DNA of 64,000 bases from Candidatus Bathyarchaeota archaeon (GTDB lineage Archaea > Thermoproteota > Bathyarchaeia > Bathyarchaeales > SOJC01), in contig JAOZHR010000025.1 of NCBI GenBank assembly GCA_026014805.1, forward strand, positions 1-64,000, read 5' to 3'. Made by a program: the position numbers and the translations under genes. This document shows positions 23,662 through 43,220 of this stretch, in pieces. The notes under the pieces are model-generated. The model was given only the letters and a program-made list of their open reading frames with translations, did not search any database and was not told the origin of the DNA. How positions within the stretch are numbered: the stretch's first letter is position 1; the number at the start of each line of letters is the position of its first letter.

Positions 23662-24309
23662 TCAACCAATAACTCGTTTGATGATCTCTACACCGAAGCT
23701 GAACCCATGTACAATAGCTGGGGATTCTCTACCAATTAACTTTCTTTCGCCACTGACAACCAACTTTCTCAAGTCCTCTAGGCTCGTGACTGAACTAAAA
23801 AAGATCGTTCTGATGGATCCTATTTCAAATGAGAAGTGTGCATCACTGCCCCCAACTACAGGCTTATTGAGTGAAAGTGCCAACTTTTTCGCTTCTAGGT
23901 TCTTTGCACCTGAACTCCTTCCGTTCAATGCCTCAACTATATCGATCTCAAGCATCATCTGCTTTGACATGTTTTTATGGCCTCTAGAGGGATGGGACAA
24001 AACTACTAACCCGTCCTGATCCCTGACTTCGTCAATTACCTCATAGAAGTCTCTTGTTGCTATATCTTCCTCTACGAATAAACCGATAAGATCACCAATG
24101 TTTGTTCTTACTTCAATCCCTGAAACGATGAGAAGATCACTCGAAATGCGGGCTTCTCTTATTGTTTCCATTGCGCCCTTGACTGTCTCGTGATCGGTCA
24201 CTGCTATTGCGGATAATCCCTTTCTTTTTGCCATTTTTATGATTGATCGCGGGCTAAGAAATGAATCTTGTGAATACTTTGAATGGATATGAAAATCGGC
24301 TTCAATCAT
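23662..24309 (-). CDS. PHP-domain phosphoesterase (copy 1)
   Basis: A 215-residue PHP protein with the metal-binding motifs in order: ADFHIHSKYSQDS, AVTDHETVKG, VSGIEVRT, LVVLSHPSRGH and VGGSDAHFSFEIG. It probably hydrolyses a phosphomonoester. It pairs with the ATP-grasp gene downstream. A paralogue of about equal length lies after ftsZ at 40565-41218. Confidence 0.85.
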   Translation of the reverse strand: MIEADFHIHSKYSQDSFLSPRSIIKMAKRKGLSAIAVTDHETVKGAMETIREARISSDLLIVSGIEVRTNIGDLIGLFVEEDIATRDFYEVIDEVRDQDGLVVLSHPSRGHKNMSKQMMLEIDIVEALNGRSSGAKNLEAKKLALSLNKPVVGGSDAHFSFEIGSIRTIFFSSVTSLEDLRKLVVSGERKLIGRESPAIVHGFSFGVEIIKRVIG

Positions 24310-34969: not shown

Positions 34970-35463
34970 GCACCAACACCCCCACCGTACCTTTTCTTGA
35001 AAAAGTGCCAAACAACAAAACTGCCACAAACGACAGCCACCGACCCAACCACAGAACCCACAACATTAACCAAAAAACCCCAATAATTCTCCTTTACCAC
35101 AGTCTCCGTCAAAGCCTCAGCCTCAACAACAAAACCGTTCAACTTACCTTGGCTTTGACCAGCAAAATCAACTGCATTATCAAAATCACCCCTAGCATAC
35201 GACCACTCCGCCATAGACAACAACCCCCCAGCCTCCCCAAGCGTCACCAGCAAAACCGTGACATTCGCCCCAGCTCCATCTGCCTCCGCAACAGCATCAT
35301 AACAAAGAACATTTTTCTCCTCAGCCGCAGCAATGGCAGCTACGGCATCAGTCTCGTTGGCCCCGAAAACGCGAAATCGAGCACAAGAGCCAAAAACTAA
35401 CAGAATAAAAGCCGCAAAAGTCAACAAAGGTTTGACACGAAACGACATTACTTTATGCAACAT
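34966..35463 (-). CDS. Secreted helical protein with C-terminal membrane anchor
   Basis: A 165-residue protein with an N-terminal signal or anchor (VKPLLTFAAFILLVFGSCARF), an Ala/Glu-rich helical outer part (AVAAIAAAEEKNVLCYDAVAEADGAGANVT...) and a C-terminal helix (FLVNVVGSVVGSVAVVCGSFVVWHFF) followed by a basic tail. It overlaps both its upstream neighbour (11 bases) and its downstream one (4 bases). The pair with a DUF1616 protein suggests a complex at the cell surface. No family name recognised. Confidence 0.65.
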   Translation of the reverse strand: MLHKVMSFRVKPLLTFAAFILLVFGSCARFRVFGANETDAVAAIAAAEEKNVLCYDAVAEADGAGANVTVLLVTLGEAGGLLSMAEWSYARGDFDNAVDFAGQSQGKLNGFVVEAEALTETVVKENYWGFLVNVVGSVVGSVAVVCGSFVVWHFFKKRYGGGVGA

Positions 35464-35818
35464 CCAAACCTTTTCTTGACAACCCTTTCACACTATTATT
35501 CCTAGCCCTCGAATTCGTGTACATCTTTTCAAGCAAAATCTTTTCTTTATCCACAGCGCTTACCTCTTTGTTCACACGCTCACGAAGCTTTTTATAATCA
35601 ATAAACCTCTGCAGAAACTTTTCTCCCTTCGGAGCAACCAAATAAGCGTCGTCATGACTGACACGCACCAACCCACAATCAAGCACTTCGTCAAGATACT
35701 TACACAATAGCTTGTAGCTAAGATTAGCCTTATACATAATATGCGTCTTCTTAGCACCTTCCCTGACTATTTCCAGAATCTCGGCTATGATCTGAAGCTT
35801 AGTTCTATACTTCGCCAA
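35453..35818 (-). CDS. Winged-helix regulator of the archaeal HTH_45 type
   Basis: A 121-residue DNA-binding protein. YRTKLQIIAEILEIVREGAKKTHIMYKANLSYKLLCKYLDEVLDCGLV is the HTH_45 pattern: helix, then the KTHIMYKANLSY recognition region, then the wing and PKGEKFLQRF. A charged helical tail (about 75-121) may dimerise. It is the first gene of the operon with the two surface proteins, so it may control them. Two related proteins lie at 36683 and 37371. Confidence 0.8.
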   Translation of the reverse strand: MAKYRTKLQIIAEILEIVREGAKKTHIMYKANLSYKLLCKYLDEVLDCGLVRVSHDDAYLVAPKGEKFLQRFIDYKKLRERVNKEVSAVDKEKILLEKMYTNSRARNNSVKGLSRKGLDVA

Positions 35819-36682: not shown

Positions 36683-36949
36683 TCAAATCGGCATAAACCG
36701 CTGAGCCTTACGCAACGTCCTCAACAAAACCTTACCACTTTCAGTCACTTTATACACCACAACTCCCCCAACACCATTATTCTCCTCTAGTAGCAAGCCG
36801 TTCTCAAGCATCTCAGAAAGATAACAGTTGAAACGTAGAAAATTCAAGTTGGCACGATACATAATCCTAGTCTTATTCGCTCCGTCCAGAGATTCTGTTA
36901 AGATATCAATTATAACCTCCATCCTACTTCTCCGAGTCATCGACACCAA
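36683..36949 (-). CDS. Winged-helix regulator of the HTH_45 type (second of three)
   Basis: An 88-residue protein: SRMEVIIDILTESLDGANKTRIMYRANLNFLRFNCYLSEMLENGLL then VYKVTESGKVLLRTLRKAQRF. The KTRIMYRANLNF core matches KTHIMYKANLSY (35453) and KTSIMYKCNLSF (37371). The whole protein is one winged-helix domain. Such small archaeal regulators usually bind as dimers near their own gene. Confidence 0.8.
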   Translation of the reverse strand: MVSMTRRSRMEVIIDILTESLDGANKTRIMYRANLNFLRFNCYLSEMLENGLLLEENNGVGGVVVYKVTESGKVLLRTLRKAQRFMPI

Positions 36950-37370: not shown

Positions 37371-37688
37371 TTACGCTGACATAAGAGCGGCCAGATTACG
37401 GTAAGCCCTCAAAAAATCCTTTCCCCTTCCAGTAGTCTCAAAAAAGTAGCTAGTTGCACTCTGCCTCTTCGTGAACACTTTCAAAAGACCCTTATTCAAA
37501 AGAAAACCCATGTAAACCTCCAACTGACTAAAACTAAGGTTACATTTATACATAATAGAAGTTTTCCGCACTCCACCAGCAGCAGAAGAAAGTATATTTG
37601 CAATTATATCTAATCGACTTCTATGCGATGACTTAGTCTCAGTTGCCGTCTGAACCAAAAATCCTCTCACCAGACTCCTTTCTCGCAT
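37371..37688 (-). CDS. Winged-helix regulator of the HTH_45 type (third of three)
   Basis: A 105-residue protein with a 22-residue basic lead, then RSRLDIIANILSSAAGGVRKTSIMYKCNLSFSQLEVYMGFLLNKGLL and a wing with FFETTGRGKDFLRAYRNL. It is the paralogue of the proteins at 35453 and 36683. The start may be at a later codon, since the lead is not conserved. Confidence 0.78.
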   Translation of the reverse strand: MRERSLVRGFLVQTATETKSSHRSRLDIIANILSSAAGGVRKTSIMYKCNLSFSQLEVYMGFLLNKGLLKVFTKRQSATSYFFETTGRGKDFLRAYRNLAALMSA

Positions 37689-37782: not shown

Positions 37783-39069
37783 CTACACAATTTCACCAAG
37801 CAAATACGACTGAAAGACATCCACCACCTTCACAGAGACAAACTGCCCCAACAAACCACGCCCATACCTGCTCCTAATCACAACAGGTTTATACGCAAAA
37901 TTCCGCCCAACAACCGACCCCTGCTTTCCCACCTCATCAACCAACACCCTCCCACTCCAACCATTCCACTCACTGTTTCGCTCGAAAGCAATACGGCGAA
38001 CTAAGCTTGCCAAACACGCACTCCTATGCTTCACTTCTAAAGGCGAAACCTGCGGCTTCAAATCTACCGCAGAAGTCTTAGGCCTTGCAAAAAACTTAGA
38101 AATATTTACTATGTCCGGTCTGACATCTTCAATCAACTTACAAGTATTCTTAAACGCTTCTTCAGCCTCTCCCGGAAAGCCAACAATAACATCAGTAGCA
38201 ACAGTTGACTGCCGAAACGCCCTTCTAAACTTCCCAACTGCCACAATGAAGTCCCTAGTTGAATAAAACCGGTTCATCCACCCCAAAACACTGTCATCAC
38301 CACTTTGCACCGGCAAATGCAAAAACTTAAACACTTTCTCGTTTTGAAATGCTTCCATCAACTCATCAACGATGTCCATGAGATTATCAAGCGTCATCAT
38401 TCCAACACGGACAAAAAAGTCCCCCTTAACACCGCAGACACCCTTCAGCAGCTCGGCCAGATCAGTGTCAACGTCCTTTCCATACACAGCCGTATCTTGC
38501 GAGGTCAACCAAAATTCGCGAACACCTTCTGCAACATCTCTTTCAACCTTGTTTAGGATTTCCTTGATGCTATAACTTCTAAGCCTTCCACGCGCAAAGC
38601 GAACACAGCAATATGAGCATGAGCCTAAGCATCCATAGTTTACGGGAATAATGCTTATTCTAGGATTGGAACGCATGCGAGGCGAATCTAGTCGCGGCAT
38701 ATTCATTGCAGCATCTTCTAAATCTGCAACACGCTCGCCCTTAGAAACGCGCGATACGACATCAACAATTTTTTCCCCTAAAGCCGGTCCAACAACTCCG
38801 TCAAAGCAAACCTCTTTGCTCAGCCTTTCAAAGTTTATGAGTGGCAAACATCCAGCCACAATAAGCTTCTTTTCCTTTGGGATTCCTTTCAGCAAGTTTA
38901 TCATTCGATTCTCGGTGGGACCTTTAACTGCACACGTATTATAGAGCACAAGCTCAGCTTCTTGGAGACTGCTCACTATTGTATGACCCGCGCTTGAGAG
39001 ACAACCCGCAAGAACCTCGGCGTCTGCAAGGCTGCTGGAACAACCGAAGCCTTTCACGTATATTCGCAT
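37783..39069 (-). CDS. tRNA-N6-threonylcarbamoyladenosine methylthiotransferase (e-MtaB type)
   Basis: A radical SAM enzyme of about 428 residues that makes ms2t6A at position 37 of tRNA. The N-terminal UPF0004 domain (MRIYVKGFGCSSSLADAEV) carries three cluster Cys in GFGCS, NTCAVK and VAGCLP. The radical SAM motif GCLGSCSYCCVRFARGRLRSY holds CxxxCxxC. A C-terminal TRAM-like segment (VVIRSRYGRGLLGQFVSVKVV) binds RNA. The ATG at 39069 is chosen because the 43 upstream codons are not family-like. It matches archaeal and eukaryotic e-MtaB/CDKAL1 better than bacterial MiaB. Confidence 0.9.
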   Translation of the reverse strand: MRIYVKGFGCSSSLADAEVLAGCLSSAGHTIVSSLQEAELVLYNTCAVKGPTENRMINLLKGIPKEKKLIVAGCLPLINFERLSKEVCFDGVVGPALGEKIVDVVSRVSKGERVADLEDAAMNMPRLDSPRMRSNPRISIIPVNYGCLGSCSYCCVRFARGRLRSYSIKEILNKVERDVAEGVREFWLTSQDTAVYGKDVDTDLAELLKGVCGVKGDFFVRVGMMTLDNLMDIVDELMEAFQNEKVFKFLHLPVQSGDDSVLGWMNRFYSTRDFIVAVGKFRRAFRQSTVATDVIVGFPGEAEEAFKNTCKLIEDVRPDIVNISKFFARPKTSAVDLKPQVSPLEVKHRSACLASLVRRIAFERNSEWNGWSGRVLVDEVGKQGSVVGRNFAYKPVVIRSRYGRGLLGQFVSVKVVDVFQSYLLGEIV

Positions 39070-39292: not shown

Positions 39293-39463
39293 ATGAAACT
39301 CATTACGTTATATCTCCCCGAACCCTACATTCGAGCACTAGACAGCCTTGTAAACGAACAATACTATCCAAACCGTGCAGAAGCCATCCGCATAGCTATA
39401 CGAGACATGTTATCCGTAGAGGTTTGGGGGAGGAAACAAAATGGCTGGCGAAAAACCAACTAA
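39293..39463 (+). CDS. cdrS: CdrS-like short ribbon-helix-helix regulator
   Basis: A 56-residue protein: MKLITLYLPEPYIRALDSLV then YPNRAEAIRIAIRDML, the strand and two helices of an RHH domain with almost nothing else. Its 3' end overlaps the ftsZ start by 23 bases in another frame. In haloarchaea a short RHH protein, CdrS, is encoded directly before ftsZ2 and controls cell division; the same order and size here support that name. A strong Shine-Dalgarno site precedes it. Confidence 0.82.
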   Translation: MKLITLYLPEPYIRALDSLVNEQYYPNRAEAIRIAIRDMLSVEVWGRKQNGWRKTN

Positions 39464-40568
39464 CAAAGCTCTTCAACCCACATGGCAAGGCACCCTTGCA
39501 CCAACTGACAGCATACAGCCATCTAACCAATGCAAAATCGTAGTCATCGGAATCGGAGGAGCCGGCAACAACACGGTCACACAACTAACAAAAATGAGAA
39601 TAAAAAATACTCATACAATTGCAATCAACACTGACTCACTCCAACTTAACGCGTCACAAGCAGATCAGAAAATACTAATCGGAGAGAAACTGACTCAAGA
39701 CGCTGGCACAAGCGGAAATCCTGTTTCGGGAAGGGCTGCTATAGAAGAGTCACGGAAACAAATAGAGAGTACCCTAACAAACGTGGACATCGTATTTGTC
39801 ACCACAGATCTGAGCGGCGGAACTGGAATAGGAGTTGCCCCAGCCGTCGCAGAAATCGCCAAGAAAAAAGGTGCCACCACAATAGGAGTAGTTGCGAAGC
39901 CTTTCCAAATTGAAAAAGATCGAATGAAATCAGCTTCTTATATGCTCACTGAACTCCAACGGGAATGTGATACAGTTGTAGTAATTGACAACAACCAACT
40001 TACAGAACTCGCACCTGAACTTCCAATCAACGAAGCTTTCAAAATTGCTGGCCAAGTGTTGGCCAAAGTGATAAAAGGCCTAGTAGAGATGATTTCAGCG
40101 CCCAGCCTCATCAATTTTGGCCTCGCCAACTTTATGAACATTGTAAAACACGGCGGAGTCGCAGTGATAGGAATAGGCGAATCTGACGCGCAGAATCGCG
40201 CCGAAGAAGCAACACATAACGCGCTAAGAAGCCCATTGCGAGATGTTGACTACGCTGAAGCTACAGGCGCACTCATCGAGGTCACCGGCGATAGTCAAAT
40301 GACAATTGAAGAAGCTAATCGTGTCGGAGAGATTGTAACAGAAATGATGAATGACAACGCCCAGGTGATTTGGGGTGCCAGAGTAGATCCAGAGCTGGAC
40401 GGGAGGATTAGAGTCACTCTGGTGATGACTGGCATTAACTCACCGCGTATAGTGTCAAAGTTTGGTTCAATTGCCCCTCAGCTTTTCAACCTAGAACCTT
40501 ATTCAGAACCTGAGAAAAAACTGCGCGTAGATCTTGGCCTATACCAGCTAGAAAAATTCGAATCCTAA
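39441..40568 (+). CDS. ftsZ: FtsZ-family protein with degenerate GTPase loops
   Basis: A 375-residue tubulin/FtsZ homologue that would form cytoplasmic filaments for division. The N-terminal G loop IGIGGAGNN (36-44) is intact, as are IDNNQL and EKDRM. The tubulin signature reads LSGGTGIG (124-131) rather than GGGTGTG. The T7 loop reads NFGLANF (225-231) where typical FtsZ has NxDxxD, so both catalytic acidic residues are lost, and the helix position of the guanine-contacting Asn is Gly204. It should bind GTP poorly or not hydrolyse it. Gene position after cdrS and a conserved C-terminal tail (DLGLYQLEKF) suggest it is still selected. Confidence 0.9.
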   Translation: MAGEKPTNKALQPTWQGTLAPTDSIQPSNQCKIVVIGIGGAGNNTVTQLTKMRIKNTHTIAINTDSLQLNASQADQKILIGEKLTQDAGTSGNPVSGRAAIEESRKQIESTLTNVDIVFVTTDLSGGTGIGVAPAVAEIAKKKGATTIGVVAKPFQIEKDRMKSASYMLTELQRECDTVVVIDNNQLTELAPELPINEAFKIAGQVLAKVIKGLVEMISAPSLINFGLANFMNIVKHGGVAVIGIGESDAQNRAEEATHNALRSPLRDVDYAEATGALIEVTGDSQMTIEEANRVGEIVTEMMNDNAQVIWGARVDPELDGRIRVTLVMTGINSPRIVSKFGSIAPQLFNLEPYSEPEKKLRVDLGLYQLEKFES

Positions 40569-41218
40569 AACCTTCCAGATAAAATTCTCCTAAGGCTTGC
40601 AAATTCCCTTTTTAACCTCATACTCCAAGGTATCGATCTACCGAAAGGCTTCACGGCTCCGTTTTTTATCGCTTTAACTATCTCGTTAATACCTGCTTCA
40701 GCGTCAACAAGAGTATAGGCCATTCCAACTTCAGGCGCATAATGAGCATCACTCCCCCCTGTTTGAGGAAGATTAAGTTTATTCGCCATTTCCCGGTTTT
40801 TACGCACTGAAAAAGAGAATGGTACTGCAGAAGAGTTGATGACTTCCATTGCATCGAAATTTCGATTAAGCTGTTCCTCCTCGATTCCCTTAAAGAACGC
40901 GGTCGGATGAGCAACTATTGCCAGTCCGTCAGCGTCATGAATTTCGTCGATAGTTTCAGCAAAAGATAAACCAGCCTTAACAGTAGTGTTGATGTTTAGT
41001 GCCAAAACATGGCCTTGCTTCGTCGTAATCTCAATTCCAGGAATAATTAGTAGACTTCGAATTTTGCTGAACTCCCGTAATCCCCCGACAGTGTCATGGT
41101 CTGCTATGGCAACTCCGTCTAGACGCCGCCTTTTCGAGTAAACGGCCAACTCTTCGGGTGTAATAAAAGCGTCACAAGAATATTTTGTGTGAACGTGCAT
41201 GTCAATTCTTAAAGGCAA
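40565..41218 (-). CDS. PHP-domain phosphoesterase (copy 2)
   Basis: A 217-residue PHP protein with all metal motifs: IDMHVHTKYSCDA, AIADHDTVGG, IIPGIEITT, AIVAHPTAFF and TGGSDAHYAPEVG. It is convergent with ftsZ and shares four bases of the two stop codons. It starts seven bases after the metG stop, so it is probably transcribed with metG. Substrate unknown. Confidence 0.85.
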   Translation of the reverse strand: MPLRIDMHVHTKYSCDAFITPEELAVYSKRRRLDGVAIADHDTVGGLREFSKIRSLLIIPGIEITTKQGHVLALNINTTVKAGLSFAETIDEIHDADGLAIVAHPTAFFKGIEEEQLNRNFDAMEVINSSAVPFSFSVRKNREMANKLNLPQTGGSDAHYAPEVGMAYTLVDAEAGINEIVKAIKNGAVKPFGRSIPWSMRLKREFASLRRILSGRF

Positions 41219-41225
41219 AGAGGTT

Positions 41226-43220
41226 TCACTTTATTTTGCTTCCAGCCTCGACTGACTTGTCGGGTTGAATGATTGAAATGCTTTTACCATCCTCTGCCGC
41301 TAAAATCATTACTTCAGAATCTAAGCCAAAAACACGTTTAGGTGTAAGATTAGTCAAAACAGCAATGTTTTTGCCTTCCAGCTGTGTTGGCTTATAATGC
41401 TGAGCGATGCCTGCTACGGCCTGTTTCAGTTCTCCAGCACCTATGTCAATGGTTAGTTTCACAAGATTCCTTGATTGAGGAACGTTTTCTGCCTTAACAA
41501 TCTTGCCTATTCGTAAGTCGAGCTTAGAGAACTCTTCAAATGTTACGGTGGACGGTGTAGTTTTCGTCTTTTCCAACTTGCTCTGCAACTCCTCTCCGCT
41601 TACCTCTATCTTGCTAAATAACGGTTTTGACTTCTTTACTTTATGACTTGAGGGTAAAAGCTTTGTTGCTTCATCCCACTTTTGCAAACATGTCTCGAAT
41701 GACAAATTGAGAAGAGCTGAAATCCTCTCAGAAGTGAACGGAATGAATGGCTCAAGAGTTATTGCCAGAGTTTTGACAATTTGGACAGCGACGTAGAGCG
41801 TATTTGCGGCTTTTTGCCTATTGGCCTTGAGGAGGTTCCACGGTTCCTTTTCGTTGAAATACTTGTTTCCTATACGGCTGATGTCAATAATTTTCTGCAA
41901 GGCCGACTGCAGCTTGCAGCTTTCCAAGTTTTCCGCCGCCTCCGCTACTCTTTTTTCCACAGCTCTGAGAACGCGTTTGTCGTAGGCGTCAAGGTTGTGT
42001 GTTTTAGGCACCGAGCTCTCAAAATGTTGATTAATGAATGTTAAAGTCCTGTGTATGAAGTTACCTAAAGTATCATTAAGATCAGCATTTATCTTTTCTA
42101 TGAAAATATCCCATGAAAAATTTGTGTCCTTTGTTTCTGGGCGCGTGGATACGAGGAAGTAACGCCAATAGTCTGCTGAGAACAATTCTAGGGCTTCATC
42201 TATCCAGATACCCACTCTGTGGCTTTTAGAGAACCTTTCGCCTTTAAATTGCAAAAATTCAGTTGAAGAAATATTCCACGGCAGGTTGTACTCTTCTTCT
42301 ATAGCAAGAAGCAAAGCTGGAAGGATAATGGTGTGAAAGGGAATGTTGTCTTTACCAATAAAATACAAAGTTTTGACATCTTTATCGAACCAAAACTCCT
42401 TCCATTTTTCTCCCTCTTCACGGTTTTCGAAGTATTCGATCGTAGCTGAGACATAGCCAAGAACAGCCTCAAACCAAACATATATTGTTTTGTTTTCTGC
42501 TCCGGGAAAGGGTGCAGGGATTCCCCATTTATTGTCTCGGGTTAACGCTCGGGGCTTAAGTCCTTCGTTGATTATATTCAGGCTAAATTTTCTAGCGTTA
42601 GAGGGCAATCTGCTGTTACTCTTTATGAATTGGCGAAGCTGACCAGTGAATTTTGGCAAGTCAAAGTACCAGTGCTCGACTTTTTTTATAATGGGTGTAG
42701 ATTTACAGATTGTACAGTAAGGATCAACAAGCTCTGCTGGTTCAAGTAGATGTCCACAAGAGCTACACTGGTCACCTCGAGCCCCTTCAGCACCACAATC
42801 TGGACAGATTCCTTCTATAAACCTGTCCGGCAAGAAGCGGTCACAGTTTGAGCAATAGGGTAATTCGGTTTCTTGAGAAAATATGTAGCCATTTTTGTAT
42901 ATCTTCGAGAAAACATTCTTTACAAATGATTTATGCACAGGGCTTTCTGTTCGTGTATAATTGTCAAAGGAAATTCCCCACTTCTTCCACAAGTCAACTA
43001 CCCTTGCGTGGTTTCTATCCGTAAGCTGCCTTGGTGGAATACCTAATCTAACGGCTTCTACTTCCACAGGCGTTCCATGCTCATCGGAACCTGTCACAAA
43101 AACTACGTCTTCTCCACGCAGTCTGTAGTATCGAGCAACAACATCTGCTGAGAGAATTGACCCTATTAGAGTGCCTAAATGAGGCATATAATTAATGTAA
43201 GGCCACGCGCAGGTGACCAC
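41226..43220 (-). CDS. metG: Methionyl-tRNA synthetase
   Basis: A 664-residue enzyme that charges tRNA-Met. The ATP motif is PHLGTL and the second motif is FSKSHRVGIW (variant KMSKS). Two zinc knuckles lie at about 120-175 (CSNCDRF...CPDC and CSSCGHLL...CTICK). The anticodon-binding helices follow, and a C-terminal OB-fold tRNA-binding domain of about 105 residues (FSKLDLRIGKIVKAENVPQSRNLVKL...). The fused OB domain is often a separate protein in other archaea. The GTG at 43220 leaves VVTCAWPYINY at the start; the true start may be a few codons upstream, where ggaggtg lies. Confidence 0.95.
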   Translation of the reverse strand: MVTCAWPYINYMPHLGTLIGSILSADVVARYYRLRGEDVVFVTGSDEHGTPVEVEAVRLGIPPRQLTDRNHARVVDLWKKWGISFDNYTRTESPVHKSFVKNVFSKIYKNGYIFSQETELPYCSNCDRFLPDRFIEGICPDCGAEGARGDQCSSCGHLLEPAELVDPYCTICKSTPIIKKVEHWYFDLPKFTGQLRQFIKSNSRLPSNARKFSLNIINEGLKPRALTRDNKWGIPAPFPGAENKTIYVWFEAVLGYVSATIEYFENREEGEKWKEFWFDKDVKTLYFIGKDNIPFHTIILPALLLAIEEEYNLPWNISSTEFLQFKGERFSKSHRVGIWIDEALELFSADYWRYFLVSTRPETKDTNFSWDIFIEKINADLNDTLGNFIHRTLTFINQHFESSVPKTHNLDAYDKRVLRAVEKRVAEAAENLESCKLQSALQKIIDISRIGNKYFNEKEPWNLLKANRQKAANTLYVAVQIVKTLAITLEPFIPFTSERISALLNLSFETCLQKWDEATKLLPSSHKVKKSKPLFSKIEVSGEELQSKLEKTKTTPSTVTFEEFSKLDLRIGKIVKAENVPQSRNLVKLTIDIGAGELKQAVAGIAQHYKPTQLEGKNIAVLTNLTPKRVFGLDSEVMILAAEDGKSISIIQPDKSVEAGSKIK

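Follow-up and report, generated by a model that had tools for sequence, protein, structure and literature searches.

FtsZ is among the most conserved cytoskeletal proteins. A degenerate FtsZ beside the Cdv machinery is already known in Thaumarchaeota: Nmar_1262 of Nitrosopumilus maritimus, which divides with Cdv/ESCRT-III, has neither a working GTP-binding motif (AGKAGSA) nor T7 and does not polymerize (PMC3684127). In addition, a conserved cdrS-ftsZ2 locus has been documented in Halobacterium and Haloferax (PMC7439475), and the C-terminal domain of archaeal FtsZ binds SepF via a motif centered on GID (Pende et al., PMC8178401). Noncanonical FtsZ-like sequences, bathyarchaeial FtsZ relatives among them, have been mentioned for Bathyarchaeia, Korarchaeia, and Nitrososphaeria in passages that describe neither decay nor a tail nor stand-alone tails (PMC9723716).

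A cdrS-linked FtsZ homolog with noncanonical T4 and T7 motifs

The window (the whole stretch of 64,000 nucleotides that was analyzed) comes from a bathyarchaeial genome of 1.79 Mb that is 96.6% complete (G000). At 39441..40568 (+), it carries an intact ORF of 375 amino acids, running from ATG to TAA, and the opposite strand contains many stops. The product matched TIGR00065 over its whole length with 330 bits (curated cutoff, 295.2), scored 131 bits for Tubulin and 108 bits for FtsZ_C in Pfam, and had M. jannaschii FtsZ1 as its best solved relative (E 7e-86). It is an FtsZ homolog, beyond doubt as to family membership, but not a canonical FtsZ GTPase by its T4 and T7 motifs.

The T7 region is SLINFGLANFMNIVKHGG, in which the loop at 40113..40130 (+) reads NFGLAN instead of the canonical NLDFAD: Asn225 is kept, Gly227 and Asn230 occupy the two positions of the catalytic acids (NxDxxD), and residues 217 to 246 include no Asp or Glu. 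Apart from the lineages undergoing decay, nearly all orthologs have N-x-D-F-[AS]-D at this place, so the change is not noise. A shifted alignment masking an acid was considered and rejected, since the alignment is ungapped and no acid lies within reach; a sequencing or assembly error is unlikely, since losses of a related kind occur in the sister genome and in further relatives. The T4 region is DLSGGTGIGVAP, compared with GLGGGTGTGAAP in canonical orthologs, and its tubulin signature at 39813..39833 (+) is SGGTGIG rather than GGGTGTG. In H7, Gly204 (40050..40052, +) stands where canonical orthologs and M. jannaschii FtsZ1 have Asp. In contrast to Nmar_1262, the window protein keeps T1 (GIGGAGNN, 39549..39572, +) and T3 (NTD), and a loss of GTP binding is therefore not evident; the Glu/Arg of T5 have likewise been kept. 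An AlphaFold model built from an input of three sequences reached a mean pLDDT of 49.5 and was set aside.

The preliminary description had reported an FtsZ homolog without the T7 acids and with an altered tubulin signature, and the ORF, the family matches, and the aligned NFGLAN and SGGTGIG bear this out, with no other acid filling the T7 position. Its reading of H7 was right about the glycine and wrong about the usual residue, which in the proteins compared is Asp and not Asn. The alignment, together with the decay series among relatives described below, lends good support to the slow or dead GTPase that it predicted, and the protein is here regarded as probably GTPase defective.

The gene lies directly downstream of a cdrS-like ribbon-helix-helix gene (RHH_1 match, 56 amino acids, 39293..39463, +), which overlaps the ftsZ start and contains the ftsZ Shine-Dalgarno sequence GGGGGAGG (39426..39433, +). 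This placement behind cdrS, noted earlier as that of haloarchaeal ftsZ2, recurs elsewhere in the order, in loci that were read and whose contig covers the slot. The syntenic markers are a MiaB-like methylthiotransferase gene (37783..39069, −), which also served as the species-tree gene, a convergent PHP-domain protein gene that overlaps the ftsZ stop (40565..41218, −), and the methionyl-tRNA synthetase gene (41226..43220, −). The slot order is MiaB-cdrS-X-PHP-MetG, where X is ftsZ or its remnants. The window protein resembles the FtsZ2 of the cdrS-ftsZ2 locus (PMC7439475) in position, FtsZ fold, and C-terminal tail and differs from it in that the catalytic acids are missing, no FtsZ1 companion was found in the genome, and ESCRT-III is present. 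Three related small winged-helix-like ORFs with a KTxIMYxxNLSF motif (35453-35818, 36683-36949, and 37371-37688) cluster next to the MiaB-cdrS-ftsZ block and are also present in relatives, and a second paralog of the PHP-domain neighbor is found at 23719-24306.

Erosion of FtsZ among relatives

The ortholog in G009, with 74% identity to the window protein, is fully canonical. The sister in G008, with 91% identity, reads NFDLAN at T7, where one acid is gone, and GIGEAGNN and GGTGMEAAP at T1 and T4, where glycines are gone. The simplest order of events is loss of the second T7 acid in the common ancestor of the window genome and G008, followed by loss of the first in the window lineage and of the glycines in the sister. 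Four further genomes (G001, G002, G003, and G011) contain full-length ORFs with 40 to 50% identity in which T1, T3, T4, and T7 are largely erased, and G111 and G112, from a separate genus of another family, show the same pattern, with T1 to T7 largely erased. Among the conserved canonical sites, these six proteins keep 3 to 5 of 15 in T4 and 12 to 14 of 17 in the tail; G111 and G112 keep 61 to 62 of 67 in the C-terminal domain. Pfam scores along the series fall from 131 through 72, 69, and 32 to none for Tubulin and stay at 65 to 108 for FtsZ_C, and the domain itself (PF12327; 40155..40436, +, in the window) is kept in the eroded full-length relatives run against Pfam. In G006 and G007, the slot holds an ORF of about 300 amino acids in which only pieces of the C-terminal domain and the tail are recognizable, and no ftsZ copy was detectable in three family members.

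These comparisons indicate that the decay of FtsZ is graded and repeated at one syntenic slot and that the window gene represents an early stage. The canonical G009 is placed inside the eroded family, which would mean several independent erosions, with some supports there being weak. The combination of a lost T7, a damaged T4, and the presence of ESCRT-III and CdvA is that of the thaumarchaeal-type degenerate FtsZ, of which Nmar_1262 is the described case. However, the loss here is a recent one, as a canonical relative is still 74% identical; it is graded, it has happened repeatedly in a single order, and relatives reach tail-only proteins. Given the canonical relatives, shared ancestry with the thaumarchaeal form is unlikely.

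Intact T1 and T3 would possibly leave the window protein able to bind GTP and thus to form static filaments. If that were the essential property, loss of hydrolysis would be an adaptation that yields a long-lived ring or filament of a GTP-binding, nonhydrolyzing FtsZ. The intact T1, T3, and T5 Glu/Arg fit such a protein, as does the expectation from E. coli FtsZ T7 mutants that loss of the T7 acids alone would block hydrolysis to a greater degree than binding (PMC3684127). Nevertheless, the 91% sister has also lost the T1 and T4 glycines, and the other eroded relatives have all lost most of the nucleotide site; nucleotide binding is therefore not what is conserved, and we consider the static-filament explanation unlikely.

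Selection on the eroding gene

For the pair G000-G008, dN/dS of ftsZ was 0.49, below 1 (p 0.008), compared with 0.21 for three neighbor genes (Fisher p 0.016); four canonical ftsZ pairs gave 0.01 to 0.06. The tail of this pair, with very few changes, gave 0.50, which is not below the rest of the protein. For G111-G112, the whole gene gave 0.18, with the GTPase domain at 0.23 and the C-terminal domain at 0.11. Constraint on ftsZ is relaxed but real. The excess over neighbors and canonical pairs, together with the three family members without a detectable copy, is what would be seen if FtsZ were dispensable and a functionless ORF were rotting. This explanation appears improbable, as the ratio is still below 1 and as neutral decay to 40 to 50% identity predicts 8 to 10 in-frame stops, yet full-length ORFs persist; in simulated decay to 50% identity, about 8 stops were expected and 1 of 300 runs was stop free. 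It is also at odds with the concentration of losses in the catalytic motifs while the C-terminal domain and tail persist and with the existence of stand-alone tails that have a ribosome-binding site and are under constraint.

Stand-alone FtsZ tails

A profile built from the last 90 residues was searched against the genomes, and the matching loci were then fetched and read. The tail in the window protein is IAPQLFNLEPYSEPEKKLRVDLGLYQLEKFES (40470..40565, +). In genomes without any FtsZ match, the profile search recovered ORFs roughly 100 codons long whose C-terminal part is the FtsZ tail, homologous to that of the window protein. Some 50 genomes of the order (49 tabulated), and some of other orders, have an intact tail-only gene in the slot, which is used in this way in other families as well. 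No FtsZ GTPase match was found in 28 tail-only genomes of the order, each at least 90% complete. A Shine-Dalgarno sequence precedes an in-frame start in 37 of the 38 aligned tail-only genes, whose proteins have 74 to 106 amino acids; four of these proteins run against Pfam reached no family cutoff. Pooled dN/dS was 0.21 for the tail, indicating purifying selection, versus 0.45 for the linker. The N-terminal part of the genes (pooled pS, 0.13; dN/dS, 1.17) was considered as a functional motif and rejected, its conservation coming mostly from the cdrS overlap and the Shine-Dalgarno sequence.

In nearly all loci of the order with contig coverage, cdrS and the MiaB-like gene lie beside the tail gene; in other orders, cdrS often went undetected, the MiaB-like gene is present, and PHP and MetG usually are too. 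On the MiaB tree, a minimum-change count required at least 10 changes among the canonical, eroded, and tail-only states, with tail-only arising several times; if only the starred branches are counted, 4 changes are still required for the tail-only state. Across a phylum-wide sample of 398 genomes, the tail was found outside the class only within full-length FtsZs. In the open-access part of the literature, which was what was searched, we came across neither stand-alone FtsZ tails nor a graded loss that recurs in one order and leads to stand-alone tails of the SepF type, and the repeated reduction of FtsZ to its tail appears to be undescribed.

Separately, cdrS is intact and highly conserved even beside tail-only ftsZ (L159:2247-2426, L163:3177-3371, and other tail-only loci). 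Since CdrS is conserved where FtsZ is the tail alone, it must have targets besides the FtsZ GTPase.

SepF and the division machinery

In sequence, the tail is the counterpart of the peptide with which archaeal FtsZ binds SepF, a membrane anchor; its GID-like region DLGLYQLE is the presumed SepF ligand. At the place of GID, the window protein has GLY, and relatives have GID or GLD (G027, G247, and G029-G031). Tails in the class include DLGIDQIE (G027), DLGLDQIE, and DLGIDLYDIE (G247), those of G027 and G247 matching the GID motif of Pende et al. (PMC8178401), and the commonest form is DLGLYQLE/ME. SepF was found in 150 of 163 genomes of the order, including that of the window (G000:C15:15524-15733; PF04472, 49.8 bits; cutoff, 27), and the SepF core is as well conserved in eroded and tail-only genomes as in canonical ones. 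The pairing of SepF and tail across genomes is imperfect: two tail-only genomes, each at least 94% complete (G059 and G071), gave no SepF match, and SepF is conserved also in some genomes that yielded no tail (G004 and G018). SepF is the best candidate for the partner that the tail would bind. The likeness to the described system (PMC8178401) lies in the conserved GID-like tail and in the presence of SepF in nearly all genomes here; the difference is that the tail is there part of a GTPase and in Bathyarchaeia also a separate small protein. An earlier survey reported SepF as missing wherever FtsZ is missing. A role for contact between SepF and the tail may explain why SepF is kept in these genomes, whose tail proteins escape standard sequence searches for FtsZ. 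In this lineage, SepF also adjoins an apparent beta-CASP/aCPSF-like RNase gene (L254, L163:6372-6746).

ESCRT-III was found in 151 of 163 genomes of the order and in 88 of the 88 high-quality ones, 51 of which have an FtsZ match; all eight high-quality family genomes contain CdvA. The window genome has two ESCRT-III-family and two CdvA matches, one of the latter lying just upstream of an ESCRT-III gene match on contig C29. Judged from gene presence and the likeness to Nitrosopumilus, Cdv/ESCRT-III is likely the constriction machine, although ESCRT can have other roles in archaea that also carry FtsZ (mBio 2024 survey, PMC10936438).

With moderate confidence, we propose that the window FtsZ is a noncatalytic SepF-binding scaffold or regulator that lost GTP hydrolysis within the genus, in cells dividing by Cdv/ESCRT-III. 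A vertically inherited, cdrS-linked FtsZ of the ftsZ2 type would have lost hydrolysis, as its sequence changes suggest; because Cdv/ESCRT-III is present and probably constricts, selection on FtsZ turnover would have been relaxed and would have been retained on the nonenzyme parts, chiefly the C-terminal tail but also the C-terminal domain. The protein would then be coexpressed with CdrS and act at a membrane site rather than as a dynamic ring. The scaffold role suggested in the preliminary description fits, with the modification that it would be a SepF-binding scaffold beside Cdv/ESCRT-III, an alternative that had not been considered there.

Elsewhere in the class, this process would have gone further: the GTPase domain has eroded past recognition, or it has disappeared and the operon slot now holds just a small tail protein. 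The wider proposal that FtsZ was repeatedly cut to its SepF-binding tail across Bathyarchaeia, with GTPase erosion preceding loss of the whole tubulin fold and with the stand-alone tail actively coupling SepF and CdrS-controlled timing to the ESCRT-III machine, is more tentative, and we put it at somewhat below an even chance. The tail is the part that selection keeps, so contact between SepF and the tail, if it occurs, would serve a function that needs no FtsZ filament. One slot displays many stages together (a working GTPase, a dead-T7 GTPase, an erased core with an intact tail, and the tail alone), and the series bears on the transition of a lineage from division by FtsZ to division by ESCRT-III. 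If true, the reduction to the tail would be a natural experiment in which the scaffold and polymer functions of FtsZ are separated.

Additional FtsZ copies in the order

The window protein had also been suggested to be a partner of another FtsZ. As a regulatory partner or poison subunit, it would act on a second, canonical FtsZ, in line with the use by haloarchaea of two FtsZs with distinct roles and with the fact that some genomes in the order encode an FtsZ of a second type. However, no second tubulin-family gene, canonical ftsZ included, was found in the 96.6% complete genome, and the seven family members with an FtsZ match have one match each, three of the seven being single-contig genomes. 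A partner role is thus highly improbable.

The second FtsZ type, present in part of the order (L072:2973-4049, L078, L066, and others), has canonical GTPase motifs and lacks the conserved tail. The second-type loci that were looked at lie outside the translation-gene context, and both bathyarchaeial FtsZ types have M. jannaschii FtsZ1 as their best solved-structure match. In several genomes, the second type coexists with a stand-alone tail protein, and FtsZ core and tail may there be split between two genes. Some genomes of family f6 have up to five FtsZ matches, and a third copy in that family (L077, G155:C17:26900-33800) has a damaged T7 (FDLS-LKALM) and an intact T4.
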